Source of the DNA: Myxosarcina sp. GI1
Lineage (GTDB): Bacteria > Cyanobacteriota > Cyanobacteriia > Cyanobacteriales > Xenococcaceae
Direction: 5' to 3'
Assembly (NCBI RefSeq): GCF_000756305.1
Contig: NZ_JRFE01000024.1
Span: forward strand, 62,001 to 126,000
Length of the DNA stretch: 64,000 nt
Position numbers and translations under genes: made by a program. Every line of letters starts with the position of its first letter. The stretch's first letter is position 1. The notes below the pieces were generated by a model. That model was not told the origin of the DNA. It was given only the letters and a program-made list of their open reading frames with translations, and searched no databases. Below are positions 6,149-24,346 of this stretch, in pieces.

Positions 6149-6160
6149 GGTTGCCTCCTT

Positions 6161-6493
6161 TTAATGATAATCTACAATCTCAACATCTCGAACTTCATCG
6201 TCTGACCAAACAAAGCATATTCGATACTGGTTATTTATACGAATACTATGTTGCTCCTGTCGATCGCCTTTTAAAGCCTCCAATCTATTTTTAGGAGGCA
6301 AACGTAAGTCATTCAAGCTAGCAGCAAAATCCAATTGGTCTAACTTTCGCCTAGCAATTTTCCACAGGTTTTGGGGACAGGCTTTACGAGCATATCTCGT
6401 ATCATCACCGTTAAAGATATCCTTTGCTCCCTGCTGTTTATAATTTACTATCACTTTAACACGGTAATCGCGATACTGTGAATAGAATAGCAT
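6161..6493 (-). CDS. higB: HigB-type ribosome-dependent mRNA endonuclease toxin
   Basis: A RelE-superfamily toxin, first gene of the higBA pair. The core matches HigB: ARRKLDQLDFAASLNDLRLPP, a LKGDRQEQHSIRINNQYRICFVW strand pair and a terminal VEIVDYH. HigB cleaves mRNA at the ribosome and is neutralised by HigA. The longest frame begins at 6493, but the first 13 residues are atypical. A GTG at 6454 (read MIVNYKQQGAKD) gives the usual HigB N terminus of about 97 residues and is my preferred start. Confidence 0.88.
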   Translation of the reverse strand: MLFYSQYRDYRVKVIVNYKQQGAKDIFNGDDTRYARKACPQNLWKIARRKLDQLDFAASLNDLRLPPKNRLEALKGDRQEQHSIRINNQYRICFVWSDDEVRDVEIVDYH

Positions 6494-6618
6494 CCAAAAA
6501 GCGATCGCGCTTATATAGCAAACAATAACACCAGAAGTTTAATCTAAGTGGGCATCAGACAAGTTATTTGTCATAATTCATAAATCTCGATCGCGCTTAC
6601 CCTTGTAAATCAAACAAA

Positions 6619-8415
6619 ATGCAACTAATCGACTGGCTCATCGTTCTGCTCTACTTTATCTTGACGATCGCTATGGGGTTATATCTATCTCGCAAAGCTG
6701 CTGTTAGTATGGAAGACTTTTTTGTTTCTGGGCGATCGCTGCCCTGGTGGTTGGCGGGGACGAGTATGGCAGCTACCACCTTTTCGATTGATACACCATT
6801 GTACATCTGCGGTGTAGTAGCCAGTCGCGGTATCGCAGGTAATTGGGAATGGTGGAGTTTTGGTTTATCTCATGTGGTGCTAATCTATATTTTTTCCCGA
6901 CTCTGGCGGCGATCGCAAATTGTCACCGATGCCGAACTGATCGAGATGCGCTACGGGGGCAAAACTGCGGCAGTTTTGAGGGGAACAAAGGCTTTTTTGT
7001 TTGCCGTACCAATTAACTGTATCGGTATCGGCTACGCGATGTTGGCAATGGTTAAAGTAGTTGATGCTTTGCAACTATGGCAGAGTTTGGGGTTTACTCC
7101 AGGGGAAAACCTCAAGCTGTGGAGTGTTATTGGAATTAGTATTTTAGTTCTAGTATATGCAGGATTTTCTGGATTGTGGGGAGTAGTAGCCACAGATTTC
7201 TTTCAGTTTTTTCTGGCTTTATTAGGTGCGATCGTCACTGCTATAGTTGCAGTAAATAGCGTCGGGGGAATGCACCAACTAATTCCCCAGGTACGGCAAA
7301 TAACCGATATTGACGTGTTGGCTTTTTTTCCTTTGCAGTTTGACAGCGGTAGATTTAGCTGGAGTGATGCCGCTGGTATTCCCCTGACTACTTTTTCGGC
7401 TTATTTATTTCTTCAGTGGTGGTCGTTTCGGCGTAGCGATGGCGGTGGCGAATTTATTCAGCGTTTGGCGGCGGCTAAAGATGAAGCAGAAGCGGAAAAG
7501 TCTTCCTGGTTTTTTAATATTTTAAACTATATAATTCGCACTTGGCCCTGGATTATTGTAGCCTTGGTGGCGTTAGTAATTTATCCCGATTTAGAAGATA
7601 GAGAGTTAGGCTATCCCAAACTGATGCTCGATTTTTTACCACCTGTAGTTTTAGGGTTGGTAGTTACTTCTCTCATTGCAGCATTTATGAGTACGGTTTC
7701 GACTTCGATTAACTGGGGTGCTTCTTATTTAACTAATGATATTTATCGTCGCTTTCTCAAACCCAATGCCAGTCAAGCCGAATTAGTCAGCGTTGGTCGA
7801 TTGACTTCGGTATTAGTTACGGTATTTGGCGCGATCGCCGCACTATATGCTAGTGATATAACTACCGTATTTCGTTTGGTAATTGCCATTGGTACGGGTC
7901 CTGGTTTAGTGTTAATTTTACGTTGGTTTTGGTGGCGTATTAATGCCGCAGCAGAATTAGCGGCAATGCTGGGAGGGTTTATTATTGGTTTAGTTACCAG
8001 CATCAATTCCGACTTTAATCAAATTGATTTTGGCTATCGGCTACTAATTATTTCGGCAGCTACCGCTTTAATTTGGATAATTGTTATGTATCTCACTCCC
8101 CCAGAATCTGATGCAACTTTAGATGAATTTTACCTGCGAGTGCGCCCTGGCGGAATTGGCTGGCAGAGACAGAGAGAACGAACGGGAATTACTGCCGAAC
8201 AAAACTTGGGTAGAGATATTGTTAAAGTAATTGCTGCCACATTGTTACTATTTGGCTCGATGCTGGCGATCGGGGGTTTTCTGTTATTACAGCCCGTTAC
8301 TGGCTGGATTTGCTTGATAATTGCCGTTTTAGGCGGTTTTTGGCTACGCCAGTTAAACAAACGCCAACTAGCACCTATGCCCCGACCAGGATTGAATATG
8401 AAGGATGAATTGTAA
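6619..8415 (+). CDS. Sodium:solute symporter (SSS family)
   Basis: A 598-residue inner-membrane transporter with more than twelve hydrophobic helices. The N terminus (DWLIVLLYFILTIAMGLYLS, then MEDFFVSGRSLPWWLAG) is the SSS signature seen in sodium/proline and sodium/glucose symporters. TTFSIDTPLYICGVVASRG corresponds to the discontinuous first helix at the substrate and sodium site. It should drive uptake of a small organic solute with sodium. The substrate is not readable. It is longer than PutP because of extra C-terminal helices, and appears monocistronic. Confidence 0.88.
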   Translation: MQLIDWLIVLLYFILTIAMGLYLSRKAAVSMEDFFVSGRSLPWWLAGTSMAATTFSIDTPLYICGVVASRGIAGNWEWWSFGLSHVVLIYIFSRLWRRSQIVTDAELIEMRYGGKTAAVLRGTKAFLFAVPINCIGIGYAMLAMVKVVDALQLWQSLGFTPGENLKLWSVIGISILVLVYAGFSGLWGVVATDFFQFFLALLGAIVTAIVAVNSVGGMHQLIPQVRQITDIDVLAFFPLQFDSGRFSWSDAAGIPLTTFSAYLFLQWWSFRRSDGGGEFIQRLAAAKDEAEAEKSSWFFNILNYIIRTWPWIIVALVALVIYPDLEDRELGYPKLMLDFLPPVVLGLVVTSLIAAFMSTVSTSINWGASYLTNDIYRRFLKPNASQAELVSVGRLTSVLVTVFGAIAALYASDITTVFRLVIAIGTGPGLVLILRWFWWRINAAAELAAMLGGFIIGLVTSINSDFNQIDFGYRLLIISAATALIWIIVMYLTPPESDATLDEFYLRVRPGGIGWQRQRERTGITAEQNLGRDIVKVIAATLLLFGSMLAIGGFLLLQPVTGWICLIIAVLGGFWLRQLNKRQLAPMPRPGLNMKDEL

Positions 8416-8868: not shown

Positions 8869-10239
8869 TTAATCGTTTTCTAGACTTAATAATTGATGAG
8901 CTTGAGAATTGAATAGCTTGCTGTAGTGTTGATAATTATTTCTGCCTCGTTCCTTAACTTGATACAAAGCAGCATCAGCATTTTTGAGTAAAGTATCGGC
9001 ATCTTTGCCATCATTAGGAAAAACAGCAATTCCAATGCTACTGCTAACGTGCAAGTAATGTCCATCTAAGTTGAATCTTGGTTTGAGATTTTCTAAAATT
9101 CTCTCAGCGATCGCCGAAGCAGCTTCATGACAACTAATTTCTGGTAGCAATAAAGTAAATTCATCTCCTCCCCAACGAGAAATTAGATCTTGTTCTCTAA
9201 CTGAATTCTGCAATCTTTCTACCACATGTTTGAGTAAAAGATCGCCGACAGCATGACCGAGGGTATCGTTAATAATTTTGAAGCGATCGAGATCTACGAA
9301 CATTACTGCTAGCATCTTACTAGTTCGAGCGGCAAGATCGATCGCTTTGGCTAGTTGTCGGTCGAATAAAGCCCTGTTGGGCAAATTGGTTAAAGAGTCG
9401 TGAAAAGCTTGATGTTGAATTATTGCTTGAGCTTTTTTATATTCGGTAATGTCGCGAAAACTCCAAACACTGCCGATGGTTTGTTCTTGAAGTTGCTGGG
9501 CTTGAGTATAACACTCTAAAATTTTGCCATTTTTTAATTCCAAGCAAGCATAATTATCGCCCGCTAATTGAGTAGGTCTAACTTTTAAACTAGTAGCATG
9601 AGGTTGGGTAAGTCGTTCGAGAACCACACCTAGAACTTGTTGGCGATCGCGCTCGATTTCAGAAGGCAACTCCCAAATATCCACAAATTTCTGATTAAAA
9701 TTAATCACATCGCCATTGTTATCTAAAACTAATATACCGTCTGCCGTAGCGTCAAGAGTTGCTTGCAGTAAAGAAATTGAATTAGCTAACTGTTGATTGA
9801 CCTCTGTTAAAATCTGGTTTTGTTCTGCTAATTGCTGTTCTTGCTGGTAGCGTTTTAAAGCTTCTTTGACAGTAAGAATTAAATCGGTTTCGTTCCAGGG
9901 TTTGGTAACGTAACGATAGAGAGCGGCAGCATTAACCAAATTGCCTACCGCATCTGCGTCTGCTTGTCCTGTTAACAAGATTTTAAGAGTTTCGGGATAG
10001 AGAGAATGTAGTTCGATTAACAAGCGATCGCCTGTCATTTCTGACATATTTTGGTCGGAAATAACTACGGGAATGTCGATGCCTTCTGCTACTAGTTCGG
10101 CACAAATAGCGATCGCTTCCGAGCCACAATCAACTAATTCTAGATCGTATTCTCCTCCAAAACTGCGCTTGAGTTGTTCGCCCAAACTTTTAAGAATTAC
10201 ATAATCATCATCAACACAAATAATTGCCGCTCTATTCAT
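8869..10239 (-). CDS. Response regulator with PAS and GGDEF domains (diguanylate cyclase)
   Basis: 456 residues. Receiver at 1-125 (CVDDD near the N terminus, VVISDQNMSEMTG phospho-acceptor region, LLTGQADAD and KPW). A short coiled coil then leads to a PAS domain at about 155-270 (LLQATLDATADGILVLDNNG) and a GGDEF domain at about 290-445. The active site is intact (RWGGDEFTLLLPEI), with DSLTNLPNRALFDRQL and FVDLDRFKIINDTLGH. It should make cyclic-di-GMP from two GTP when activated. It is the last intact gene of a kinase-receiver-cyclase operon. Its EAL half is lost, so it has probably changed from a bifunctional enzyme to a pure cyclase. Confidence 0.92.
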   Translation of the reverse strand: MNRAAIICVDDDYVILKSLGEQLKRSFGGEYDLELVDCGSEAIAICAELVAEGIDIPVVISDQNMSEMTGDRLLIELHSLYPETLKILLTGQADADAVGNLVNAAALYRYVTKPWNETDLILTVKEALKRYQQEQQLAEQNQILTEVNQQLANSISLLQATLDATADGILVLDNNGDVINFNQKFVDIWELPSEIERDRQQVLGVVLERLTQPHATSLKVRPTQLAGDNYACLELKNGKILECYTQAQQLQEQTIGSVWSFRDITEYKKAQAIIQHQAFHDSLTNLPNRALFDRQLAKAIDLAARTSKMLAVMFVDLDRFKIINDTLGHAVGDLLLKHVVERLQNSVREQDLISRWGGDEFTLLLPEISCHEAASAIAERILENLKPRFNLDGHYLHVSSSIGIAVFPNDGKDADTLLKNADAALYQVKERGRNNYQHYSKLFNSQAHQLLSLEND

Positions 10240-10242
10240 AAA

Positions 10243-10632
10243 TTACTCCAGCGCCGAGTCAATCGTTAAATACAGTTCCTGTTCCGTCCAAGGTTTGTAC
10301 AAACAAGCATAGAGATTGGCTTTTTGTTTGGCTCTTACAATCGCGGCTTCGTCAGCCTGTCCCGTGAGCATCACGGTAACTACCTTGGGAAATTTGTGAT
10401 GGACTTGAATCAAAAATTCATCTCCTTTAATTCCTGGCATCAACCAATCAGAAACAATAATTAAAATTTTGATATCGTCTTCCTGTAACTCTTCAATTAC
10501 TTCCCAAGCTTCTTCGGCACTTTCTGCTACTTCGTAAATATAGCGATCGCGAAAATTGCGTTTGAGTTGTTCTTTAAGACTTTCTAAAATAACTATTTCA
10601 TCGTCAACACAGAGAATTGCCGCACTAGACAT
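10243..10632 (-). CDS. Stand-alone receiver protein
   Basis: A 129-residue CheY-like receiver with acidic pair D10/D11, predicted phospho-acceptor D62 (VSDWLMPG), TGQAD and the conserved K in YKPW. No output domain is present. It lies 25 bp after the histidine kinase and 3 bp before the cyclase, so it is almost certainly translated in one operon with them, perhaps as phosphate relay or sink. It closely resembles the receiver at 12708-13097 across the whole length, indicating a local duplication around the kinase gene. Confidence 0.92.
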   Translation of the reverse strand: MSSAAILCVDDEIVILESLKEQLKRNFRDRYIYEVAESAEEAWEVIEELQEDDIKILIIVSDWLMPGIKGDEFLIQVHHKFPKVVTVMLTGQADEAAIVRAKQKANLYACLYKPWTEQELYLTIDSALE

Positions 10633-10657
10633 AATTAAAAATTACTCCTAAATTATT

Positions 10658-12346
10658 TCAATTTAATCGATCGGGAGCGATAGGCAAATAAACACTAAAT
10701 TTAGTATGCCCAGGCTGGCTTTCAACTTTAATACTTCCTTGATGTTTCTCGATTATTTTTTTACAGATATGTAACCCTAAACCACTTCCTTCTCCCATTG
10801 GTTTAGTAGTAAAAAATGGCTCGAAAATTTTTGCTCTAACTTCGGGCTCGATTCCAGAGCCCGAATCGGCAATTTGCACCAAAATACTATTTTCTATCTG
10901 CTTGGTAACAATCTCAATTTTTCCTTTACCTTCAAGAGCCTGTATTGCATTATGAATTAGATTAGTCCAAACCTGAATCAATTCATCAGGATAGCACCAA
11001 ATTTCGGGTAAAGCTTGATAATTACGAATTAGTTCGATATCTCGCTTAATTTGGTTGTGATAAATCTCTAATACTGTTTCAATTCCATTGATAATTTGTG
11101 TTAGTTGTTTTTCGCCTTTTTGGTCTTGACGAGTATAGTTTTTTAAAGCAAAAACTATCTTGGAAGCCCTTTCTACTGCTGTAGAAATAGTACGATTATT
11201 GCCTAGCAAACGAGTTAAATTATAGGCTAATTGCAAAATCCAATTTACTTGAGGATGTTTTAAAAGCGGTAAATAATTGTGAAGCGTACTATCTGAATAA
11301 GACAAATCACAAGAAAAATCAGTTTTGTTTTTACTAACAATTCCAATATCTATTAAAGTATCGGCTATATTTCTTGCATTATCTATTTCTTGTTCTTGTA
11401 ATAATTTAGTCAGCTGGCGTTTGAGAGGGCGTTTTTCACTAGAAGTTAGAACTGGTTTATTTTCTATTGCCTGAGTTGTTAACTCAAAAAAGCATTGTTG
11501 TTGCGCTGAGTTAAGATGTTTAACCAGTAAAGGTAATTCTGATAGAGCCTCTTTTAAAGCTTTAGTGGTATTGTCGGCAGAAGCTTGAATTGCACCCAAA
11601 GGAGTATTTATTTCGTGAGCTACTCCAGCTACTAGCTGTCCCAAGGCTGCCATTTTTTCTTGTTGAATTAACTGTGCTTGTGTTTGCTTGAGTTCTAACA
11701 GTGCTGTTTCCAAATCGTGGTTTTTATGCCATAGTTTTTTATTAAACTGCCAAAAAACTATCCCTAAAGCCAATCCTGCAACTAACAATGATAAAGCAGA
11801 ACCAAAATTAGCAATTGTTCTTGCTTGTTGTTCTCGCTCTATGTAAATCTTTTCCAGATTGGAAATTTCTGCATACAATTCATCGTAAACTTTATCAATT
11901 TCTTCTTCATTTATTTCTATTAAATTTTGAAAGTTTTCGCTAATCAATAATTGCAAGGCTCGATTTATTTGACTTTCATATTGTTTTTGAAGAATGAAAA
12001 AATTGCTTAGTTCCTCTCGATTAGAATCGAGAGCTTTTAAATTCTTCAATACTATTGACGTTTCTTCTCGACTTTCCTCTAATTCTTGACTGACGTTCTG
12101 TTCTAGTTTGCGCTCGTTTATTTGGTACTTGGCAATAGCTTCCCATTCTAATAAATTCAGTCTACTTAACTGTTCTTTCATATTAAGTAAAAGAATTTTG
12201 GTACGAGCGCTTTTTTCTGCCCATTGATTGATTTTATTAATAGAAACTATTGTAGTAAGAGATATCAAAAGTGCTATGACTAACACCGACCATTCTGGTA
12301 AATGGAATTTTTGGTTTGAATTTTGTTTATAAACTAAGTTATTCAT
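10658..12346 (-). CDS. Membrane sensor histidine kinase
   Basis: 562 residues. A membrane helix at about 18-35 (LVIALLISLTTIVSI), a helical periplasmic sensor of about 140 residues without a recognisable fold, and a second helix at about 180-200 (LSLLVAGLALGIVFW). Then come a coiled coil, the H-box AGVAHEINTPLGAI, and a HATPase domain with N box (WTNLIHNAIQAL), G1 (DSGSGIEP), F box (FEPFFTTKP) and G2 (GSGLGLHICKKI). A long helical insert separates H-box and ATPase, as in several cyanobacterial kinases. It should phosphorylate the neighbouring receivers. The signal is unknown. Confidence 0.92.
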   Translation of the reverse strand: MNNLVYKQNSNQKFHLPEWSVLVIALLISLTTIVSINKINQWAEKSARTKILLLNMKEQLSRLNLLEWEAIAKYQINERKLEQNVSQELEESREETSIVLKNLKALDSNREELSNFFILQKQYESQINRALQLLISENFQNLIEINEEEIDKVYDELYAEISNLEKIYIEREQQARTIANFGSALSLLVAGLALGIVFWQFNKKLWHKNHDLETALLELKQTQAQLIQQEKMAALGQLVAGVAHEINTPLGAIQASADNTTKALKEALSELPLLVKHLNSAQQQCFFELTTQAIENKPVLTSSEKRPLKRQLTKLLQEQEIDNARNIADTLIDIGIVSKNKTDFSCDLSYSDSTLHNYLPLLKHPQVNWILQLAYNLTRLLGNNRTISTAVERASKIVFALKNYTRQDQKGEKQLTQIINGIETVLEIYHNQIKRDIELIRNYQALPEIWCYPDELIQVWTNLIHNAIQALEGKGKIEIVTKQIENSILVQIADSGSGIEPEVRAKIFEPFFTTKPMGEGSGLGLHICKKIIEKHQGSIKVESQPGHTKFSVYLPIAPDRLN

Positions 12347-12707
12347 AATGTCTTTATAACTTCGTCATCAGCAGAATTAGCTTGAATTACACCAACTAAT
12401 TCATAAACAAGCTAGCAGTAACATAACTTGCTTCTACTAGTAGTTTTGCTTAATTCGAGAGAGCTACACTATCTTCATTAATTTTTAGGCGCTATTAACT
12501 TTAAGATTCCCAAAACAATGCTCTAAATTGCGATCGAAAAAAAAACTATCGAACATCAGTCTGCAAAAGACTAATAAATACTAAAGAACTATTGCTGATA
12601 GTAGTGAACTAGGACAAACTAAATTTAACAACTAGCTACTTACTGACAGTAGACAGACAGTAAGAAGTAGTCGCACTATAACAACTAACGATTAATCAAC
12701 AAAAACT
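12347..12707. promoter_or_regulatory. Divergent promoter region between kinase and receiver
   Basis: A 361-bp AT-rich region between the divergently transcribed kinase operon and the second receiver gene, expected to hold both promoters. A small direct-repeat flavour (CTTACTGACAGTAG, GACAGACAGTAAG near 12640-12665) stands upstream of the receiver. I see no gene or stable RNA. Confidence 0.4.
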
Positions 12708-13097
12708 ATGTCTGAGTCTGCAATTCTCTGTGTCGATGATGAAGTAATTATTTTAGATAGTTTGAGAGAGCAACTCAAACGAAAATTTGGAACCCGCTTT
12801 ACCTATGAAGTGGCTCAAAGTGCTGAAGAAGCCTGGGAAGTAATTGAGGAACTAAATGATGAAGAAATTGACATTATCGTTATTGTCTCTGACTGGTTAA
12901 TGCCAGGAACTAAGGGAGATGAATTTCTCATTAATATTCATCAACGTTTTCCCAAACTCAAAACCATAATGCTCACTGGACAGGCTGACGAAACTGCAAT
13001 CGAACGAGCCAAACAAAAAGCCAATCTTCATGCTTGTTTGCATAAGCCCTGGAAAGAAGAAGAGTTAACTAAAGTTATTACTGCTGCAATAGATTGA
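12708..13097 (+). CDS. Stand-alone receiver protein, paralogue of the 10243-10632 receiver
   Basis: A 129-residue single-domain receiver: CVDDEVIIL, VSDWLMPGTKGDEF with the phospho-acceptor Asp, LTGQADETAIERAKQKANL and KPW. It matches the receiver on the other side of the kinase nearly residue for residue except at its surface and C terminus. It is transcribed divergently from the kinase. The pair probably competes for phosphate from the same kinase with separate expression control, which is inference. Confidence 0.92.
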   Translation: MSESAILCVDDEVIILDSLREQLKRKFGTRFTYEVAQSAEEAWEVIEELNDEEIDIIVIVSDWLMPGTKGDEFLINIHQRFPKLKTIMLTGQADETAIERAKQKANLHACLHKPWKEEELTKVITAAID

Positions 13098-13260: not shown

Positions 13261-15426
13261 CTACATTTTCTTTAATTCCTCAAACTCTGATAGCTCATTT
13301 GACAAAATTTTCTGTTGAGCTTGATATTTTTCTAGATTGTTTTTAATTTGAATTTGCTGCTTTTCAACTTCTACTATGCGATCGGTATAAGTATCGCTTA
13401 TAAATTCAAGAGTATCAGCAATCTTTTTATCTTCTGAGTCTAATGCCAGGTTAATATCTTGAATTACTTTATCTAATAAATTTTTAGTAAACGATTGATA
13501 ATAGCTAGCCAGGTCTTTCTTTAGTTTCGTACCCGCTTCTTCTAATTTATGTTTGTTGTCGTTATTGTATGCATTAACTAACAGGAAAATAATCGCACAG
13601 ACAAATATGCCAAAAAACCAAGGTTGCTCTTGAAACATGCCTGAAAGATTTTTCATCATTTGACCTTTATTAGCACTAATGCCTACAAATCCCAGCAATA
13701 AAGTTAGCATCATCATAACTTGCATCATTTGACTTCTTAGTTGCTTCATGATGTATGCACCCAAAGATTTTTGTTTGTGACTTACTTCGCAGTTAGTACC
13801 AGCAAAAGAAATTAGAAAATTATCTTTTATGTCGATTCTTTCTGGTTGGGAAAAAATAGATTCTGGTAAGAGATTGGGGACGATATTAACTGTTTGGTAA
13901 AGTCGATCTAATAAGCTATTTAATCCGCCGCGATCGTAAATATGTTGAATGCGTTGCCATTCTTCGATCGCCCAACTTTCTAAAGAAGTAGTACAAAAGC
14001 CAATTAAACTTTCATTAATATCTTCCGAATCTGGTTGAGAATCATCGTTTAACTGAATAATTTTTTGTCCATGTTTATTGAAAACAATGGGATTGAGGCG
14101 ATCGACAAAATCTTGAACTTTGTAAATAATACTTTTTTTGCTGTAAATATCTAGCAGTGCTGCTTTAGAGTTAGCTACATCTAGTTTTATTTGTTTGAAA
14201 AACTTGTCTTTATCCTGATTGGCTTGCGCGATCGCTTTTTTGCTAATTTCTTTAAAGTTGAGTTGTTCTAAAGCTTTTATTTCCTGTTGTTCTTGAGTTA
14301 TTTTCTGGATTAATTCCTCTTGTTGGTGATATAAAACTGGTTCGATTGGTTCTGCGGCACGGACGACTTTAACCGCTATGCGTTTGGCTAACATATTTTC
14401 TGGTTGACGCTTGACAGAACTTTCAACGACTTTAAAAAAGCGGTCTTGTTTTTTTTGCAGTTTGGGATCGATTTCGAGATCGGTATCTTCGCTGTAATAG
14501 GGTTTGAGATACAGAGGAATTAACTCAAAACCTTTGTCTGCAACTTCGTTTTTAAGCCAGTTTTCTAGTTCGCTAAGATTAGCGTCGGCATTTTTGGCGA
14601 CTTCTGGTTCTTGTTTGGGATTGGGTATGTCTACCACCAAAAACTGTTTGGAAATGCAGGTATTGTCGAGATCGCGGATAAATGCCGTTACTTCTGTCGT
14701 GGGTGCCTGTTTACCGTCAATAACTACAAACAGTAAATCGCAATCGACGATATCCCAATATTCTCGATCCGTGCCATCTGAGTTGGGAGTTTCAACTCTA
14801 GTAGTAAAAACTAGTTCGGCAATACCTTCACTAAACCTTGGAGAAGCTAAAGTAACTATGTCTTTAGACTGGAGTAGCTGACACTCGGTAATTTTTCTGC
14901 CGTTGACGAAAGTGCCGTTGGTACTGCCGCGATCGCAAATTTGCCATTGAGTAGCTTCGCCGTTAACAACTGGTTCGATTGCTGCATGATTCCAAGAAAC
15001 TCCCTGATATAAGTTGGGAGCGATCGCAATATCGCATTCATGGGATCTGCCAATTAGCTTTTCTTTATCCGAACTAAGTTCAAAATACTGCTGTACTCCT
15101 GTAGAGTTTTGCTGGAACTGCCTTAACTGTATGCTGGCAAACTGCTTGGGTGTAACTTTTACTACTGGCTTGGGAATGGGATCGAACTTTAGCTGAAGAA
15201 CTTCTTTTAGCTCTTTTTTACTATTAATTAGATCGAATAAAGCTTGTGCCAGCAATGGTTCGTCACTTACAATCTGGACGGTTAGCTTTTGAATATCCAG
15301 GACTTTTTTAAACTGAACCAACTTTCGTTCTATATCGGCTAAATCTTCGCGGTCGTCGGTTCTTCTGGCTAAAAAAAGCTGCAAGTTTTCTATAGTTTGC
15401 TTGAGTTTATCTGCTTTTGGTGGCAT
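13261..15426 (-). CDS. FHA-domain protein with membrane hairpin and coiled coil (possibly dynamin-like)
   Basis: 721 residues. Residues 1-60 are helical. An FHA domain covers about 115-205 with the canonical GRSHECDI, SWNHAAI and RGSTNGTFVNG motifs that read phosphothreonine peptides. The next region (CDLLFVVIDGKQAPTTEV, KQFLVVDIPNP) resembles the second half of a dynamin-type G domain but I see no P-loop. After a long helical part come two adjacent hydrophobic helices (MMQVMMMLTLLLGFVGI; WFFGIFVCAIIFLLVNA) and a charged coiled coil to the end. This suggests a membrane-attached scaffold that binds a phosphorylated partner. It lies downstream of four coiled-coil genes on the same strand. Confidence 0.78.
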   Translation of the reverse strand: MPPKADKLKQTIENLQLFLARRTDDREDLADIERKLVQFKKVLDIQKLTVQIVSDEPLLAQALFDLINSKKELKEVLQLKFDPIPKPVVKVTPKQFASIQLRQFQQNSTGVQQYFELSSDKEKLIGRSHECDIAIAPNLYQGVSWNHAAIEPVVNGEATQWQICDRGSTNGTFVNGRKITECQLLQSKDIVTLASPRFSEGIAELVFTTRVETPNSDGTDREYWDIVDCDLLFVVIDGKQAPTTEVTAFIRDLDNTCISKQFLVVDIPNPKQEPEVAKNADANLSELENWLKNEVADKGFELIPLYLKPYYSEDTDLEIDPKLQKKQDRFFKVVESSVKRQPENMLAKRIAVKVVRAAEPIEPVLYHQQEELIQKITQEQQEIKALEQLNFKEISKKAIAQANQDKDKFFKQIKLDVANSKAALLDIYSKKSIIYKVQDFVDRLNPIVFNKHGQKIIQLNDDSQPDSEDINESLIGFCTTSLESWAIEEWQRIQHIYDRGGLNSLLDRLYQTVNIVPNLLPESIFSQPERIDIKDNFLISFAGTNCEVSHKQKSLGAYIMKQLRSQMMQVMMMLTLLLGFVGISANKGQMMKNLSGMFQEQPWFFGIFVCAIIFLLVNAYNNDNKHKLEEAGTKLKKDLASYYQSFTKNLLDKVIQDINLALDSEDKKIADTLEFISDTYTDRIVEVEKQQIQIKNNLEKYQAQQKILSNELSEFEELKKM

Positions 15427-15484
15427 GAGTTTAATCGCTATAACAGATATTACCGTTTTGTTGGCATTGCTGATTCTGTAATGA

Positions 15485-15528
15485 TAAGAGACTATTTTGC
15501 TTACTTATCAGCAAATGATAGTCTCTTA
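15485..15528 (-). terminator. Inverted repeat downstream of the coiled-coil operon
   Basis: An 11-bp perfect inverted repeat (TAAGAGACTAT at 15485-15495 and its complement at 15518-15528) with a 22-nt loop. It sits 50-90 bp after the last coiled-coil gene and before the FHA-membrane gene on the same strand. It may terminate or attenuate transcription between them. A strong U-run is absent, so attenuation or RNA stabilisation is as likely as termination. Confidence 0.45.
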
Positions 15529-15577
15529 AAAGCTAAAAGCATGCGCTCCAGACTGCGCTAATGGCTTATAGCTTGTT

Positions 15578-16486
15578 CTAAACGCCGAATTTACCGAGTA
15601 ATTCTTTGACTTCATCGATAAGTCCCACAACAGTTTCCATACCGACATTGGTTAAGCTCACGCCATCAACCAAAGTATCTTTAGTGGTATCTACAGTAGT
15701 ACTGGTCGTGTCTACCATTTCGCTTAAGGTAGTCAGAGCATCTTCCAATTCTTGAGCTTTAGCAGTAAGATCGCCAAATATGCTTTCTTGCTCGCTGGTA
15801 AAATCGTTCAGAGTTTCTTCGGAAGAACTGTTGGTTTCTTCGGCTTTGTCTTCGGCTTTGGTACTCAGTTCGGTTTGTATGGTTTCCAAATGAGTTGCCA
15901 GGTTAGCCAGCATTTCGCTTAATTTCTCACTAGCATCGTTTGATACTAACTCTTGAGTTTCGGAAGCTTGAGAATCGATTTCTTCTTCGTAAGCTGCGAT
16001 CGCTTCAGATACTTCATCTTGTAGATTGCTCTCCGAGTCGGCGAGGTTTTCTATCAGATTTTCCTGGACTTCTTCAACTTTACTCTGAAGATTGTCGATA
16101 GTTTCTCTTACTGCTTCAAATACGTCGTTCAATTCCGAGCCATTAGTTTCTGATTCGTTACCCAGTTCGCCCAACTCAGCTTTAGTTTCCTCTAGCTGCT
16201 GACTGGCTTCCGATTGTAAAGATTCAATACTGCTTTCCATATCGGCAAAGCCTTGAGTGACTGCTTCTGACTCGCCACTTAAATCTTCTCTAGCAGCAGA
16301 AATTCGTTCTAATAAAGCTTCGGCTCTTTCTGCCAGACTAGACCAGTTACTATCAAACTGTGCCGATACCTCAGCTAATCTTTCTCGTGCCTGAGATAAG
16401 TTTTCTCCTGCCTCATCGGCGCGATTCATCAATTCTTGTAGCTTCGTTACCGTTTCGGCTGCGGTGGTTTCAAAATCAATTGCCAT
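15578..16486 (-). CDS. Acidic coiled-coil protein, member 4 of a four-gene array
   Basis: 302 residues, no domain I recognise. Composition is dominated by E, S, T, A, L and D with almost no aromatic residues and no cysteine. Heptad-like hydrophobic spacing runs nearly end to end, so a long amphipathic helical rod is expected. There is no signal peptide or clear membrane helix. The start at 16486 is preceded by a good Shine-Dalgarno (AGGAG). It shares size, composition and layout with the three genes upstream. The many Ser/Thr residues could supply phosphopeptides for the neighbouring FHA proteins, which is inference. Function unknown. Confidence 0.75.
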   Translation of the reverse strand: MAIDFETTAAETVTKLQELMNRADEAGENLSQARERLAEVSAQFDSNWSSLAERAEALLERISAAREDLSGESEAVTQGFADMESSIESLQSEASQQLEETKAELGELGNESETNGSELNDVFEAVRETIDNLQSKVEEVQENLIENLADSESNLQDEVSEAIAAYEEEIDSQASETQELVSNDASEKLSEMLANLATHLETIQTELSTKAEDKAEETNSSSEETLNDFTSEQESIFGDLTAKAQELEDALTTLSEMVDTTSTTVDTTKDTLVDGVSLTNVGMETVVGLIDEVKELLGKFGV

Positions 16487-16529
16487 TTGTTTAATCTCCT
16501 ACTAGTTAATTACCGTTTCAAAATTTGTT

Positions 16530-17462
16530 TTAACAAAAATCTACGCCAAACTTATTTGCTGCTGTTCTAACGTTGTCAATTCCGTCTTCTATGGGATCGA
16601 TAAAGCCTTCAAGCTGGTCGAATAGTGGCTCTAGAAGCTGTCGCGTTCCCGAAGATTCTTCTTCTGAGTCGGTCAATCTTTTAACCATGTCGTCCATTGA
16701 GTCTGTCACTTTACCGACAGCACTATCAATTAACTCTCTAATTTCTTCTTGAATGGTTTCTTTAGCATTATCCATCAAGCCATCTACTCCACCAGATAAA
16801 AGTTCTGATGTTTCGTTAAGACTGTCGCTAAAGGTAGAGGCGATACTGGCAAATTCACTAGCCATAGTCTGAATATTGCTACTAACTTCCTCTTGTCCCT
16901 GGTTAACTCGTTCGGTAAAACTGTCTATTTCTCGTTCCATTAAGTCTTGAGCCGATTCTAGTTTTTCTCGCATCGAGCTAATTTTTTCGATGGTGCTTTC
17001 CATTGCCGTCGCTAACTTTTCTTGACTTTCGTTAATAGAGTCGCGAGCTTGAGTAAGTTCGCTGTTGCTTTCTTCTTCTTTAGCTCTAGTCGAGTCGCGA
17101 TTATCGTTTAACTGACTTTGAAACTGACTAAATTTTTCCTGGGTACTTTGCACCTCTTCATCTAGCTGTTGGGTAGCCTCGCTGAGAAAATCAGTTAATT
17201 CAGTGACGCTATTTTCAAAACTTTCTACCTGAGATTCAGTTTCGGACTGATGTTCGGCTACTTCTTCGCGCATTTCATTAAGTGCGGTTTGTACCTGTGC
17301 CAGAATCTCGGCTACCTGCTGCTGTTTTTCAGCTACGTTTTCGGTTAGTTCGTTGGCTTCGGCTTCTACTTCCTGTGCCTGAATAATGATGCCATCCAAT
17401 CTTTCGGGAAAATCCGTCATCAATTGGGACATCATATCTAAAGATTCGCTTAATTCGCTCAT
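16530..17462 (-). CDS. Acidic coiled-coil protein, member 3 of a four-gene array
   Basis: 310 residues from the preferred start at 17462 (MSELSESLDMMSQ), which has GGGAG eight bases upstream. The frame is open to an ATG at 17522, but that extension reads through a short AAAAAGT tandem repeat and gives an atypical hydrophobic stretch, so I reject it. The protein is almost entirely predicted coiled coil (for example ANELTENVAEKQQQVAEIL) with a slightly more hydrophobic tail. It is soluble-looking, acidic, without known motifs, and a sister of its neighbours. Confidence 0.75.
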   Translation of the reverse strand: MSELSESLDMMSQLMTDFPERLDGIIIQAQEVEAEANELTENVAEKQQQVAEILAQVQTALNEMREEVAEHQSETESQVESFENSVTELTDFLSEATQQLDEEVQSTQEKFSQFQSQLNDNRDSTRAKEEESNSELTQARDSINESQEKLATAMESTIEKISSMREKLESAQDLMEREIDSFTERVNQGQEEVSSNIQTMASEFASIASTFSDSLNETSELLSGGVDGLMDNAKETIQEEIRELIDSAVGKVTDSMDDMVKRLTDSEEESSGTRQLLEPLFDQLEGFIDPIEDGIDNVRTAANKFGVDFC

Positions 17463-17560
17463 GTCAAAATACTCCCAAACAAAGTAAAAAGTAAAAAGTA
17501 AAAAGTTTGTAGGTTCTATCAAATCGAATAGCTTTAGAACCTCTGGATCTCAATCTGGTT

Positions 17561-18556
17561 TTAGAAAATACCGCCCAGACTTAAGACTTCGTTAATAGTA
17601 CCGATCGCAATTTTGGCTGCTGCCATCATTGGCAGTAACGGAGATAGTGCCGTGGTAACGGAAGTGCCAAAAGTCATCATGGTAAAGTTTTCTACCACTT
17701 CAGTCATCATTGCCTTGACCGAATCTTCGATCGCATCTTCAAAGGTTTCGGTAATGCGCTCTTTCATGGTTTCGCCTGCATACTCCTGAGAGTCTTCTAA
17801 AACTTCATTAAGAGTTTCTTTCAGGCGATCGGCTAAATCTTCTGTATCTTTGCCAAAAGAGTTGAACATTTCATCGAAGTTTTTGCCGAGTTCTTCTAAC
17901 CCCGAACTTATTTCTTCGAGTTGTTCGTCGGTAAGCTCACTGCTAAAGTCGCTGAGGATTGAGTCTAGTTCGGACTTTAAAGTTTCACCGATATTGTTTG
18001 CCACTTCATCAAAGTCGCTTTCAGTATCGGACTGAGCCGTTTCCATTTGCTCCTGCAAACCTTTTATGCTTTCGGTAAAGTCGTCAAAGAAGCTTTCGGT
18101 TTCGTCACTACTTTCGGCGACGCTGTCTTCCATTTCGGAAATGGTTTCCGCCAGTTCGCCAAATGCCGCTACCACCTCTTCTAAACTACTTTCTAGTTCG
18201 CTTTGACGACTATCATTATCCGAGCCAAATTCGTTTTCTGCGCTCTCTATGGTTTCGCCACCGCTAGTTAGTCTTTCTTCTAAGTCTGCTAGAGCCTCTT
18301 GTAAACTTTCCATGACGCTCAACATTTCGTCGCGAGAGCTACTAAATTCGGTTTGAGCGTTTTCAAATTCTTGTGTAGTAGCTTCTAAGCCTTCGATAAT
18401 GTTATCTTTTGCTGCTTCTAAGCTGCTATTGGTAGATTCCAACTGACCGGTGAGTTCGGTCATTTGAGTTGATGCCAACTCTGTAGCATCGATAATTTGC
18501 TGGAGTTTCTCGCTGGTTTCTTCGATATTTTGCGATAGGACTTCTGCTGCTGCCAT
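17561..18556 (-). CDS. Acidic coiled-coil protein, member 2 of a four-gene array
   Basis: 331 residues. Long Glu/Ser-rich coiled coil through about residue 270 (SLEEVVAAFGELAETISEM), followed by a C-terminal segment with hydrophobic character (MTFGTSVTTALSPLLPMMAAA) that could contact a membrane or form an oligomerisation plug. Start at 18556 has AGGAG upstream. No known domain. It lies 33 bp after the preceding coiled-coil gene, consistent with one operon. It is the only member with a clearly hydrophobic tail, so it may anchor the others; that is inference. Confidence 0.75.
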   Translation of the reverse strand: MAAAEVLSQNIEETSEKLQQIIDATELASTQMTELTGQLESTNSSLEAAKDNIIEGLEATTQEFENAQTEFSSSRDEMLSVMESLQEALADLEERLTSGGETIESAENEFGSDNDSRQSELESSLEEVVAAFGELAETISEMEDSVAESSDETESFFDDFTESIKGLQEQMETAQSDTESDFDEVANNIGETLKSELDSILSDFSSELTDEQLEEISSGLEELGKNFDEMFNSFGKDTEDLADRLKETLNEVLEDSQEYAGETMKERITETFEDAIEDSVKAMMTEVVENFTMMTFGTSVTTALSPLLPMMAAAKIAIGTINEVLSLGGIF

Positions 18557-18589
18557 ATCAATTCTCCTGTTAATTAATATTTATAAGGG

Positions 18590-19483
18590 TTACAACAATA
18601 TGGATTTAGCCGTGTCGAGAACTGGCTTAACTTCGTCAATTAAATCGGTTACTTCGGAAACTTTATCGACAATTTCGCCGATGCTGCCTTCAAGTAGTTC
18701 GCTCATTTCGCCTCCAGCATCATCTAGAGTTGAAAACGCCTTAGTAAGTCCCTCGGATGAACCCGTAAGTTCTGCCATCACCTCGTCGGCAAATTTAGAG
18801 GCGATCGCACCTATTACCCCTTCGGCTAAAGAGTCTAAATTGCTTTCAAAATCTTCTTTTTTACTAGTACTCTCCTCTTCTACGTTAGAAAAATCGTCTG
18901 CTAAAGTTTCAAGTTTCTCTTGTAACTCAGTTTCCAAAGCCGCAAATTGTTCTAGCAGCTCGGCTTTTTTCTCGTCAAAGCTATCTATAGCAGCATTGAT
19001 AGCCTCATTATGTTCGTCAATGTTGCCGTTGGCTGCTTCTTGGTAATCGACTATTGCCTCTTCCAAATTGCGGAGGTTTTCTGAAAAAGTATCCAAGTTA
19101 TTGGTAGTATTCTCTTTTTCCTCCTCCATTTGAGCGGTCATTTCTGCTTTACGGCTTTTTACCTCTTCTAACCGAGTGCTAAAGCGATCCATTGCTTCGG
19201 CTACACCATCACCGACTTCGGTAATTTTCTCTTGAAAGGAAGTGAGCCTTTCTCTGGTGCCTTCCATTTCGGTTTCTAGAGATTCTTCTGCTTCCTCTAG
19301 TTCGGCGATAATTGCCTCCCAACTTTCTTGAGCTTCCTGGTTGGCAGTGGTCAATTCATCAGCCAAGTTAGTAGCAAATTCTACGATGCGATCGACTTCA
19401 TCAAAAGCTGTTTCCGCATCGGTTATTAAAACTTGCGATTTTTGGTCGCACTGGTCGATCAGTTCGTTAATATCTTCAGCCAT
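18590..19483 (-). CDS. Acidic coiled-coil protein, first gene of a four-gene array
   Basis: 297 residues, beginning AEDINELIDQCDQKSQVL. Nearly continuous amphipathic helix rich in E, A, L, S and T (for example FSTRLEEVKSRKAEMTAQME). One cysteine near the N terminus; the sister proteins have essentially none. Ends with IVDKVSEVTDLIDEVKPVL, similar in style to the C terminus of the fourth member. It is the promoter-proximal gene, divergent from the FHA-WD40 gene across a 409-bp gap. No enzymatic motif is present; I do not recognise the family. Confidence 0.75.
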   Translation of the reverse strand: MAEDINELIDQCDQKSQVLITDAETAFDEVDRIVEFATNLADELTTANQEAQESWEAIIAELEEAEESLETEMEGTRERLTSFQEKITEVGDGVAEAMDRFSTRLEEVKSRKAEMTAQMEEEKENTTNNLDTFSENLRNLEEAIVDYQEAANGNIDEHNEAINAAIDSFDEKKAELLEQFAALETELQEKLETLADDFSNVEEESTSKKEDFESNLDSLAEGVIGAIASKFADEVMAELTGSSEGLTKAFSTLDDAGGEMSELLEGSIGEIVDKVSEVTDLIDEVKPVLDTAKSILL

Positions 19484-19892
19484 AATCTTTATTTACTAAG
19501 TTAATAGAACTCTCCAACTAGCACTCTTCAAAAAGTTACTGTCTCCAGTAGTGTTTGAAGGTTACATAGATTAAATACGCCCAACCGATCGCAAATATGC
19601 AAATAATTTTATTTTTTTGTGCGGAGAGATAATTGTATGATTTTAAATACATACAATAGTATATTTAAGTTTCACTGCAAATACTCAAACCTCTATCTAA
19701 ATATTTTTTTTACAAAATAGGTGAAAATAAGCGTAAATAACTATAACAAGGCTTTTTTGAATAATTTAAATAACTACTTAAATGCGTATTTTTGGGTGTA
19801 CCAAAATTTAATATGACCGACAAAACAAATAATTATGCAATATTTGTCAAGCAAAATTTTATAAAGTTAACAGTTAGATAAGAGGTGAATTT
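19484..19892. promoter_or_regulatory. Divergent promoter region between coiled-coil operon and FHA-WD40 gene
   Basis: 409 bp, very AT-rich, with no supported gene. It must carry the promoter of the four-gene coiled-coil operon (leftward) and of the FHA-WD40 gene (rightward). A Shine-Dalgarno-like AGAGGTG lies just before the FHA-WD40 start. The shared control region supports a common function for the genes on both sides. Confidence 0.5.
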
Positions 19893-21563
19893 ATGGCAAA
19901 TCTTGACGATGCTAATTGGGCTTCTTTGACCATTAAAACTACATCTACTAGTGAATCTAATCTCCAACAATACTCTCTATCTCCAACAGAAATTACAGTT
20001 ATCGGTCGTTCGCCAGATTGCCAAATTGCTTTAGAACCAAATAAATTTCTTACCGTATCTCGCCGTCATGCAGAGATAAAAATGGTCGATTCAAATTGGA
20101 AGATCGAAGATTTAGGAACTACTAATGGCACTTTGGTTAACGATCGCCCCATTAGCGAACCCAGACAATTAGAGTCTGGCGATCGCATTACTTTAGGAAA
20201 AAAAGGACCCGAATTTGTTTTTGAATGTTTGACCCTCGACGCTACCGTAATGGTGCAAAAGACAGAAATAAAACCTCCGCCAGTAGAAGACAAAATAGAA
20301 TTGAAAGCCGCATCTTCATCAGCAGTGGTAAAAGATGCTGACAATAATGCAACGGACTCGCCTGCTTCCGTTTCTAAATCTCCGCCAGAGTCCAAATCGC
20401 CAACTCCCGCATCAGAGAAAGCTAACATTAAAGCCAAATTTGAATCAAAAGTCGCACCGCCACCAGCATCAGTAAAAGATTCCGACGATAATGCAGCAGA
20501 CTCAGCTTCTGGCATCGCTACACCTTCATCAGAGAAAGCTGAAACTAAAGCTAAACCAGACCGTCTTAAAACTCCAGCATCGAAGTCTACTGCACCTAAA
20601 AAACAAGCTTTTACTAAAGCTAAGACTCAAGCCACAACTTCTCCAGTAGAAAAATCGACAACTCCTGAAGTAAAATCAGAAGCCGTCTCGCTTCAAGCAT
20701 CCTCAGAACCCAAATCTACACCTGCAAAACAGCCAGTTTCTCTACCAAATAATCCTCCGCCAGTAGCTACCAATAATACGGCAGGCAAATCGTTATGGAA
20801 TATAATTTCACAAACAAATTTATATCAGCTAGCAGGACATTCCCAACCAGTATTAGCGTTAGTTTTTAGTCCAGATGGACAGATATTAGCCAGCGCAGCC
20901 AAAGATAAAACTATTAAATTGTGGAATATCGCCAGCCAAACGGAAATTGCCACACTGACAGGGCATAAACTAGCGGTTAATGCTTTGGCTTTTAGTCCCG
21001 ACGGTCAAACCCTAGCTAGTAGCGGTGCTGACAAAACTATTAAACTGTGGAATGTTGCCAGTCAAGAAGAAACTGCCTCGTTTGCAGGTCATAAACTAGC
21101 GGTTAATGCCTTAGTTTTTAGTGCCGATGGTCAAACCTTGGCTAGCGGTAGTGCCGACAAAACTATTAAACTGTGGAACGTTGCCAGTCAAGAAGAAACC
21201 GCCTCGTTTGCAGGTCATAAACTGGCAATTGAAGCTCTAGCTTTTAGTGCCGATGGTCAAACCCTGGCTAGCGGTAGCAAAGATAAAACTATTAAGCTGT
21301 GGAATGTTACCGATCGAGAAGAAGTAGCGACTCTTACGGGACACAAACAGGGAATTAATGCTATTAGTTTTAGTCCCAACGGACAAATAATTGCTAGTGC
21401 CGATGGCGATCGCACCATCATATTGTGGAATTATACAACCAAAGAACAACTAGCTACAATTGCCACTCCTAGTTGGCAGGTTGGCGCGATCGCTATTGCT
21501 CCCGATGGTAAAACTTTAGCTGGTAGTGACGAGCAACATACAATAAAAATTTGGCAAAATTAA
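19893..21563 (+). CDS. FHA domain fused to a WD40 propeller
   Basis: 556 residues. An FHA domain covers about 15-110 (VIGRSPDCQIAL, SRRHAEIKM, LGTTNGTLVNDRPI), with the residues that bind phosphothreonine present. A linker of about 190 residues rich in P, S, K, A and T is probably disordered. Six to seven WD40 repeats fill about 305-556 (for example GHKLAVNALAFSPDGQTLAS, DKTIKLWN). Both halves are protein-interaction modules, so this is a scaffold that could connect a phosphorylated ligand to other partners. No membrane segment. Divergent from the four coiled-coil genes, and the second FHA protein in this cluster. Confidence 0.88.
   Translation: MANLDDANWASLTIKTTSTSESNLQQYSLSPTEITVIGRSPDCQIALEPNKFLTVSRRHAEIKMVDSNWKIEDLGTTNGTLVNDRPISEPRQLESGDRITLGKKGPEFVFECLTLDATVMVQKTEIKPPPVEDKIELKAASSSAVVKDADNNATDSPASVSKSPPESKSPTPASEKANIKAKFESKVAPPPASVKDSDDNAADSASGIATPSSEKAETKAKPDRLKTPASKSTAPKKQAFTKAKTQATTSPVEKSTTPEVKSEAVSLQASSEPKSTPAKQPVSLPNNPPPVATNNTAGKSLWNIISQTNLYQLAGHSQPVLALVFSPDGQILASAAKDKTIKLWNIASQTEIATLTGHKLAVNALAFSPDGQTLASSGADKTIKLWNVASQEETASFAGHKLAVNALVFSADGQTLASGSADKTIKLWNVASQEETASFAGHKLAIEALAFSADGQTLASGSKDKTIKLWNVTDREEVATLTGHKQGINAISFSPNGQIIASADGDRTIILWNYTTKEQLATIATPSWQVGAIAIAPDGKTLAGSDEQHTIKIWQN
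20835..21465 (+). repeat. Tandem 126-bp WD40-coding repeats
   Basis: The WD40 part of the FHA-WD40 gene contains consecutive 126-bp units (42 residues each). Three central units beginning near 20960, 21086 and 21212 are almost identical in DNA, including silent positions, and encode ADKTIKLWNVASQEETASFA in two copies. This points to recent internal duplication or gene conversion, and the repeat number may vary between strains. Confidence 0.8.
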
Positions 21564-23230: not shown

Positions 23231-24346
23231 TTATTCCGTTTCTCCAAACCATTTTTGATAAATTTCATCATAAGTTCCATTTTCGATTATCTCTAACAAT
23301 GCCTGATTGATTGGTTCTCGGTAAGGACTGTTTGATTTGAGAGCAATGCCATATTTTTGTCGTTCAAAAATCGGACCTACTACTCTAACTTTACCCACAC
23401 CATCTTTAACTGCATAGTTTTGTAATACTGGAGCATCATAAACTACAGCATCTACTCGTTCTGCTTCTAGAGACTCATAGGCATCTTCTACCAAGTCAAA
23501 TTCAATTCTTTTGATGGGTCGATTGGCTAAATATTCTGCTGCCGTACTACCTTTAACCGTAGCTATCCTTTTTCCATCGAGGCTATCGGGTCCTTCAATA
23601 GAACTTGCTAACTGTTGCACCGTTAGAGCAGAACTAACCGAAGCAGTAAAATAAGATATTAGTAAAACTCCTGTAAACATCCAAATAGTGGCGACTATTC
23701 TACCAGCCACGCCAATTGGTGCTTTATCTCCATAGCCAACAGTAACTACGGTTACGACAGACCACCAGCAAGCTTCCCAAATACCAGGTAAATATTCTCG
23801 TGGAAACATCTGAGAATTTTGCTTACGCTCGAAAAACCATAATAAGTGAGCCGAAATAAAAATAACTAGTAGCAACACACCAATAGTTTTTAAAAGAATG
23901 GGAGAAAAAATCAACCAGAAAAAGGTATCGATCGGAGAAGTTTGAGAACGTGAAAGAACTAATATTTGTAATCCTGATTCAAAAAAGGGGTAAGAAAAGT
24001 CTACAGTTTTTTCTCGTTCGGAAGTTATAGTAATTCCTGCGATCGCCACATCAGTATTTTTAGAACTTACTGAATTCAATAGCTCCGAGACAGTTGTTTC
24101 TCCGTATAGTTCGTATTCCAAATCTAACTCTTTAGCTACTTCCTGCCAAAGATCGATACTAAAGCCAATATATTGTCCTTCATGAACGAAAGCAAAAGGA
24201 GCAAATGGTTTTGTTCCTACTTGCAATGATTCAGCGCGAACGGAAACTGGAAAGATACTAATTAAAGATAGCGACGTACATCCTAATAAACTCAAGCGAA
24301 TAAACTGCTTGCGTGGAATTAGATTGCTAAAGATCGAACTAAACAT
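23231..24346 (-). CDS. GluR0-type ligand-gated potassium channel
   Basis: 371 residues. A signal peptide (LLGCTSLSLISIFPVSVRAES) leads to a periplasmic amino-acid-binding domain that is split by a channel pore. The first half is about residues 38-135 (KPFAPFAFVHEGQYIGFSID, SYPFFESGLQILV). The M1 helix is about 145-170, then the pore loop with filter TVGYGDKAP, M2 (IWMFTGVLLISYFTASVSSAL) and the second binding half (LDGKRIATVKGSTAAEYL). This is the domain order of Synechocystis GluR0, a tetrameric potassium channel opened by amino acids such as glutamate. The filter is intact, so potassium selectivity is expected. The ligand is unproven. Confidence 0.9.
   Translation of the reverse strand: MFSSIFSNLIPRKQFIRLSLLGCTSLSLISIFPVSVRAESLQVGTKPFAPFAFVHEGQYIGFSIDLWQEVAKELDLEYELYGETTVSELLNSVSSKNTDVAIAGITITSEREKTVDFSYPFFESGLQILVLSRSQTSPIDTFFWLIFSPILLKTIGVLLLVIFISAHLLWFFERKQNSQMFPREYLPGIWEACWWSVVTVVTVGYGDKAPIGVAGRIVATIWMFTGVLLISYFTASVSSALTVQQLASSIEGPDSLDGKRIATVKGSTAAEYLANRPIKRIEFDLVEDAYESLEAERVDAVVYDAPVLQNYAVKDGVGKVRVVGPIFERQKYGIALKSNSPYREPINQALLEIIENGTYDEIYQKWFGETE

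Follow-up and report, generated by a model that had tools for sequence, protein, structure and literature searches.

The threonine phosphorylation pathway of the type VI secretion system (T6SS), with the kinase PpkA, the phosphatase PppA and Fha1, is a described case in which a Ser/Thr kinase and an FHA protein switch a multi-protein apparatus. The type VIIb secretion system (T7SSb) also has kinase-like and FHA components, and its LXG toxins carry helical N-terminal targeting parts, while polar scaffolds of the DivIVA/FilP/Scy type pair a helical scaffold with a Hanks-type kinase. We compare with these a gene set in a 64,000-nucleotide stretch of the cyanobacterium Myxosarcina sp. GI1 (contig NZ_JRFE01000024.1, positions 62,001 to 126,000), referred to in the following as the window. 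The set consists of four tandem genes for rod-like helical proteins (R4, R3, R2 and R1), followed on the minus strand by a gene for an FHA protein with predicted membrane segments (the FHA-membrane protein), and of a divergent gene for an FHA-WD40 protein. Judged from its sequence, the set points to an undescribed switchable assembly. In the form that we favor, to which we would give an even chance of being correct, the four rods and the FHA-membrane protein would constitute a kinase-switched, membrane-anchored assembly of different rods, with phosphothreonine read by FHA domains.

The likeness to the T6SS pathway lies in the kinase and the FHA protein, and also in a PP2C gene that adjoins the cluster of one relative (G382). 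No type VI genes were noticed in the fetched loci, beyond which no T6SS search was made, and we know of no rod counterpart in that pathway. Unlike T7SSb, none of the 29 genomes carrying the rods has a match over the cut-off to the EssC model (TIGR03928, a model for Firmicutes). Weaker matches occur in 11 of the 29, and two weak ones, covering part of the model, fall in frames of about 1800 residues (L266 of G119 and G550:C139:4610-5332); such matches mean little, a T7SS control on 14 well-known genomes having given matches in nine and a score over the cut-off in one. A T7SS reading is thus left without support from these comparisons. For the DivIVA/FilP/Scy systems, likened here by description, we know of no FHA-membrane anchor or K+ channel. 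The cyanobacterial coiled-coil-rich filament proteins Slr7083 and HmpF are likewise similar by description, being long, helical candidate scaffolds (PMC7002697); from the text of that paper the word FHA is absent.

No account of the gene set was found in the literature, as represented by the accessible part of the open-access PubMed Central text. We rate the set as new in its combination: the FHA, kinase, WD40, GluR0 and toxin domains are of known kinds, and the rod quartet and its combination with them have no match among the systems tested or found. What makes the set significant is its conservation in a near-fixed gene order, although we found no specific curated family for the rods or for the body of the FHA-membrane protein.

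The rod quartet and its association with the FHA-membrane gene

The minus-strand genes are transcribed in the order R4 (18590-19483, 297 residues, defined by the open reading frame (ORF) and its orthologues), R3 (17561-18556, 331 residues, with an apolar C-terminal stretch), R2 (16530-17462), R1 (15578-16486, 302 residues) and FHA-membrane (13261-15426, 721 residues); the FHA-WD40 gene (19893-21563, 556 residues) lies on the plus strand. The initial annotation had claimed six genes here, with the FHA-membrane gene downstream of the rods and the FHA-WD40 gene divergent. An ORF check places all six at the positions given, and the arrangement is borne out by the ORFs and by Pfam. The frame listed for R2 (16530-17522, minus strand) opens with a TTG at 17522; because most R2 orthologues begin at the residue matching the window ATG at 17462, the protein probably starts there and has 310 residues. 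The linked set extends past these coordinates, to a GluR0-like gene at 23231-24346 considered below.

The rods and the FHA-membrane protein occur together. In a sample of 386 genomes of the phylum, most of the FHA-membrane protein is matched in this genome and seven others (in one of them split by stops), an R2 profile reaches E < 1e-100 in exactly the same eight, and all eight have orthologues of all four rods. The FHA-membrane query matches 79 genomes of this sample, 71 of these in the FHA region. In a sample of 388 genomes of the order, R2 is present in 28 (E <= 1e-20). A profile of the C-terminal portion of the FHA-membrane protein, without the FHA domain, reaches 3e-65 or better in every one of these; a further genome, 67% complete, has that protein at the same level and no R2 match. 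The 3e-65 line, with its 29 strong matches, was set after the list had been viewed, and rod-positive genomes supplied the sequences for the profile. In the phylum sample, the R2 profile also gives weak matches in seven more genomes, at 3.9e-11 to 8.4e-7; four of these fall in frames of more than 1,400 residues, and we treat all seven as generic helix. The initial annotation had tied its proposal to co-occurrence of rods and FHA genes in other genomes. Since all 28 rod-positive genomes also have the FHA-membrane protein, the contrary outcome did not arise, and the neighborhood search finds the genes often linked in other cyanobacteria.

The 29 rod genomes comprise these 28 and Myxacorys californica (G185); they are related, and counts among them are not independent events. 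The order R4-R3-R2-R1 on one strand is kept in 26 of 28 complete sets, where G545 is scored by one of its two copies, with a short R1 frame. The exceptions are the rearranged sets of G506 and G549; that of G550 is truncated where its contig ends. G185 and G389 have other genes between R3 and R2. Extra rods accompany the quartet in six of the 29 genomes. In G592 these are four, with best matches to R4, R3, R2 and R1 in that order, and a similar row is seen in G475; the presence of another complete set is an argument for the four rods working together. In 21 of the 29, the FHA-membrane gene and R2 are at most 26 kb apart, in several orientations. Such neighborhood counts are lower bounds, the rods and the FHA-membrane gene being on different contigs in five genomes; G545 is scored on a contig without that gene, which its other rod copy adjoins. 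That the genes are unrelated and neighbors by chance is scarcely credible: FHA, WD40 and helical proteins abound, and the rods draw weak matches from many models, but the co-occurrence, the linkage in several arrangements and the kept rod order contradict it.

Neither R2 nor the FHA-membrane protein was matched among the plasmids searched. In a contig scan with the FHA-membrane alignment, using two patterns of which the FHA motif was one, the 80 listed loci, apart from that of Myxacorys californica, were matched in the FHA part with at most a little beyond it.

The rods were described in the initial annotation as acidic, Ser/Thr-rich coiled coils. The window rods have net charges of -55 to -68 and Ser+Thr contents of 14-21% (R2 in its 330-residue form), in line with the first part of the description. 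R1 to R4 are four distinct families rather than interchangeable coils. Each recovers its own orthologue even when low-complexity regions are masked (against G368, 1e-92 for R2 and 3e-68 for R4), and the likeness is therefore above that expected by chance. Rod statistics were calculated for 27 R1, 27 R2, 26 R3 and 28 R4 proteins, leaving out identical proteins, frames below 280 residues (an R1 in G545 and another in G550) and the loci from G549 and from the second contig of G545. The lengths are 296-302 (R1), 301-330 (R2, longest frame), 327-335 (R3) and 295-312 (R4) residues.

The hydrophobic period, as a family mean over whole rods, is 3.56, 3.55, 3.56 and 3.60 residues for R1, R2, R3 and R4, respectively. 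The periodicity power is 15-23 for the family means and 16-23 for the window rods, compared to a 95th percentile of 6.0-6.5 for shuffled rods. Coiled coil is thus an approximate label, as a plain heptad coil, with a period of 3.50, does not agree with peaks at 3.55-3.60. Single thirds of the rods span periods from 3.54 to 3.74, and mixed heptads and hendecads would fit. A model of R2 built from two sequences has helices at residues 2-217 and 225-304 (mean pLDDT 67), suggesting with low-to-medium confidence an all-helical protein. With a rise of 0.15 nm per residue, a helix of 300 residues is about 45 nm long.

The rods receive no name from any curated family: searches of Pfam, NCBIfam and PADLOC give scattered helical models, and the PADLOC matches are limited to helical parts of ZorA, LmuB, JetC and others. 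Among the matches listed, the sole model over its cut-off is Pfam ApoLp-III (PF07464, 36.3 bits), for R2 (42.1) and R4 (46.7). In a profile search of the PDB, R2 matches ApoA-IV at 4.5e-7. These matches would suit amphipathic proteins of the apolipoprotein type, coating lipid or membrane, an identity that we consider very improbable. R1 (15.7) and R3 (23.8) are below the ApoLp-III cut-off, and the PDB matches of R2 also include designed helix bundles and further helical chains of no relation, which indicates a generic amphipathic helix. Among the matches listed from the PDB profile searches were FHA domains and, for R2, generic helices; a further search gave nothing below 0.09.

FHA domains, kinases and candidate phosphothreonines

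In the assembly that we favor, R1 to R4 would be four specialized subunits of one long helical structure, which the FHA-membrane protein would anchor or nucleate at the membrane. A Hanks-type kinase would switch the assembly via phosphothreonine, the likeliest site being a near-C-terminal invariant threonine of R1 and/or R3 or the Ser/Thr/Pro/Lys-rich linker between the FHA and WD40 parts of the FHA-WD40 protein. Binding of the phosphothreonine by the FHA domains would then couple the rods, the membrane anchor and the WD40 hub. If this is true, the two threonines and the two FHA domains constitute direct targets for testing.

The FHA domain is clear in both FHA proteins by Pfam (5.5e-15 and 5.1e-20). 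In the FHA-membrane protein, it spans residues 124-193, and a crude hydropathy scan predicts two membrane segments, 567-585 and 602-620. Gly126, Arg127 and Ser144 of this protein are present in 35 of 36 sequences, and His147 and Asn170 in 34 of 36; Gly38, Arg39, Ser56, His59, Asn78 and Gly79 of the FHA-WD40 protein are present in 18 of 18. We take the conserved Gly, Arg, Ser, His and Asn of both domains to be the phosphate-binding residues, and their conservation is consistent with the phosphothreonine binding that the initial annotation had assumed. A stricter pattern of FHA residues is found in 24 of the 36 FHA-membrane and six of the 18 FHA-WD40 sequences.

Beyond the FHA domain, nothing in Pfam or NCBIfam exceeds the cut-off for the FHA-membrane protein. 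PADLOC gives no match for it or for the GluR0-like protein, and for the FHA-WD40 protein one HEAT-ARM model over part of the propeller. A dynamin-like identity of the FHA-membrane protein, suspected from its predicted order of strands and helices, was rejected: the P-loop GxxxxGK[ST] occurs in none of 36 sequences, no dynamin model is among the 25 Pfam families listed for 32 members, and hhalign against a GTPase-like protein of the window (44504-46708, named by eye) gives a probability of 0.2%. Homologues of 542-549 residues that share the core and have no FHA domain occur in genome family f1 (L232 6103-7752, L233 6483-8117 and L234 6145-7773), adjoining an Era-like GTPase gene (by eye); the one scanned received no family name. 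The FHA domain may be an insertion into an FHA-less protein of this kind. In two loci the genes for the FHA-WD40 and FHA-membrane proteins flank a third FHA gene (L225 6982-8526 of G591, FHA 2.6e-10 in Pfam, and L226 6597-8111 of G518).

In 14 of the 29 rod genomes, a Hanks-type kinase gene lies no more than 3 kb from the FHA-membrane gene; the 681-residue kinase of G498 is an example of such a neighbor. All 14 kinases have the HRD-type motif and 13 also DFG. The genome of Myxosarcina sp. GI1 (7.07 Mb, 76 contigs) has 19 kinase matches; because these are 19 in 7 Mb, a kinase this close to a given gene would be expected by chance in a few per cent of cases. In addition, five rod genomes have a kinase-like neighbor without catalytic motifs (the raw count was six, that of G382 being the cut end of an intact kinase). 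A kinase also lies within 3 kb in eight of nine fetched loci without rods (G402, G390, G395, G438, G611, G551, G555 and G415; the ninth is G398, and a tenth, G511, is outside the count), where the FHA-membrane homologues have about 700 residues. The pair of kinase and FHA-membrane protein looks older than the rods. The initial annotation had observed that the cluster lacks a kinase and had called for a distant one. The window indeed has none, and none of the 19 matches is on C24, the contig that carries it; the best match to the neighboring kinase of the relatives is encoded on contig C6, shows 57% identity to it along the full length and is its probable orthologue.

Only two threonines of the rods are invariant, Thr279 of R1 (27 of 27) and Thr301 of R3 (26 of 26). 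They lie 23 and 30 residues from the C-terminus, respectively, and three to four residues from a conserved glycine. The best threonines of R2 and R4 reach 74-75%, and none is invariant. The proposal that the rods serve as FHA targets through their richness in Ser/Thr can thus be retained in part: the richness is not the key, and the single invariant threonine in each of R1 and R3 takes its place as the candidate.

Several observations weigh against the kinase-switched assembly. As fetched, 15 of the 29 genomes, that of the window included, have no kinase within 3 kb of the FHA-membrane gene. The invariant threonines can be structural, and the invariant residues, nine in R1 and five in R3, also include a serine in R3. 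Relatives of the FHA-membrane protein exist without rods, 26 of the 54 matches at 1e-6 in the 388 genomes lacking R2, and in G119 and G109 a large distance separates the FHA-membrane gene from the rods. Finally, the model of the FHA-membrane protein, built from two sequences, has a pLDDT of 46.6, too low to be usable, and no usable model of a complex was obtained.

Toxin genes within rod loci

In four of the 29 rod genomes, belonging to three genera, the rod locus contains toxin-type ORFs with a common N-terminus. G185 and G389 have them between R3 and R2; in G506 and G549, which are of one genus, they lie among the extra rod copies. Of four ORFs scanned with Pfam, one has PT-HINT and Ntox24, one has Ntox44 and two have no match. 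The toxin of G185 is neighbored by a gene of SUKH-1, a known immunity family, and unnamed ORFs follow the toxin in G389 and G549. Between G506 and G549, one toxin has a common first part and a different remainder, a modular exchange of the kind usual in polymorphic toxins; by eye, one of the two ends resembles a GIY-YIG nuclease. The N-terminal section of a profile built from three of these toxins is found in four of the 29 rod genomes, always in the rod locus, and among the 386 genomes of the phylum in G185 only, two others matching just the pretoxin part.

The N-terminus of R1 resembles that of these toxins. A 24-residue matrix from six toxin N-termini has its best place at residue 18/19 of R1 in 19 of 27 R1 proteins, with a top score of 39 versus 26.2 for shuffled rods, 29.8 for reversed rods and 29.2 for R2 to R4. 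The best reversed rod is exceeded by ten of the 27, one of them at another place. The R1 proteins are related and the matrix control is simple, so we grade the similarity as a lead. It suggests that the toxins would dock at the place where R1 docks.

These results bear on an alternative in which the rods are an apparatus for handling or delivering polymorphic toxins, and other clients that would dock into the rods by an R1-like helix, the kinase and FHA proteins timing its action in the way that the threonine phosphorylation pathway times type VI secretion. It draws on the toxin-type genes within the rod loci, on the immunity-type neighbor, on the restriction of the N-terminal section to rod genomes, on the C-terminal parts swapped between sister genomes and on the similarity to R1 above the controls. 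We nevertheless consider it rather unlikely, since 25 of the 29 rod genomes, including that of the window, have no toxin with this N-terminus and no secretion ATPase or channel was identified. Moreover, the likeness is one between amphipathic helices, with 17 of the 27 R1 proteins not above the best reversed-rod score, and with three genera involved and two of the four genomes in one genus, the toxins may have landed there by chance. If the link were true, it would represent a new bacterial way of handling polymorphic toxins. The common N-terminus, pretoxin region, exchanged C-termini and SUKH neighbor are shared with polymorphic toxin systems, the trafficking of which involves T2SS, T5SS, T6SS, T7SS, PVC, TcdB/TcaC, PrsW and the like (type II, V, VI and VII secretion systems among them); a rod-like N-terminus is not among the modes named in the accessible part of the source (PMC3482391).

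At the locus L263 of G545 (4963-6762), two ORFs of 277 and 280 residues lie between R4 and an R1 copy. Their products have similar short helices at the C-terminus and might be clients of a further type.

The GluR0-like channel and other features of the window

The gene at 23231-24346 (minus strand) encodes a protein of 371 residues with the Pfam domains SBP_bac_3 (5.4e-33, residues 41-369), Lig_chan (3.3e-14) and Ion_trans_2 (1.3e-13), and the K+ selectivity-filter motif TVGYGD can be read in its sequence. By this domain make-up, a split solute-binding domain around a channel domain with a K+ filter, it is classed as a GluR0-type glutamate-gated K+ channel. The gene is linked to the set in 13 of the 29 rod genomes, which are all 13 of the families f1 and f9. 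In 11, again all f1 or f9, it is within 26 kb of R2, and in G475 and G550 (where the gene is split) a different contig carries it, close to the FHA-membrane gene. For the remaining 16 rod genomes, no channel match above 200 bits was present in the stretches fetched. COP23-type and S1-protease-type genes are each observed within 26 kb of R2 in eight of the 29, also in f1 and f9.

The GluR0 of Synechocystis has the same domain make-up and filter motif and slows the shrinkage of cells upon KCl upshock (PMC13099474). The window gene differs in its linkage to rod and FHA genes, neither FHA nor an operon being mentioned in the text of that paper, and no open-access PubMed Central paper was found that combines 'GluR0' and 'FHA domain'. 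The linkage would give this channel, a bacterial relative of animal glutamate receptors, a possible partner machinery. Because the channel is linked in two genome families, ionic or volume stress may be a trigger or an output of the assembly.

It is unlikely, in our judgment, that the rods instead form a scaffold or filament of the cell cortex that serves shape, turgor or volume in partnership with the GluR0-like channel, the toxins being mere passengers. The linkage in all 13 rod genomes of f1 and f9, the effect of GluR0 on shrinkage after KCl upshock and the filament-like structures formed by cyanobacterial coiled-coil-rich proteins (PMC7002697) are in agreement with such a scaffold. The channel gene is, however, missing above 200 bits from what was fetched of the other 16, and the 13 of 13 is a raw count, uncorrected for how frequent such channel genes are or how often they lie near other genes by chance.

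The purpose of the assembly may be mechanical, in cortex or volume, or conflict by way of toxins, or both. The membrane-anchored assembly of different rods, which we prefer, has a bolder version that includes toxin handling: a signal-gated rod apparatus of a new kind in cyanobacteria, by means of which some lineages would load or deliver toxins through a helix imitating R1, while in others the GluR0-like channel would be trigger or output. We regard this version as possible but on balance doubtful.

On the other side of the set, histidine kinase and response-regulator genes adjoin it in the window at 8869-13097. Farther away, the region 28333-59813, beside a tRNA-Ala gene, has the look of a type V-K CRISPR-associated transposon, with Cas12k at 32400-34247 (NCBIfam, 1.8e-276) and, named by eye, a TnsC-like ORF (57261-58109), a TnsB-like ORF (58122-59813, weak transposase matches) and a MerR-like ORF. 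A group II intron at 28846-30626 (Rfam match 28846-28923; maturase 28920-30626, 5.3e-106) lies between the tRNA-Ala gene and Cas12k. The segment 34854-56390 is possibly defense-type transposon cargo, with two helicase-like ORFs, a PglX/Alw26-like methyltransferase (weak matches) and the large GTPase-like ORF 44504-46708 mentioned above. A Cas12k-like ORF (by eye) is also found about 8 kb from the FHA-membrane gene of Myxacorys californica (L038, 178-2022), which is probably a coincidence.

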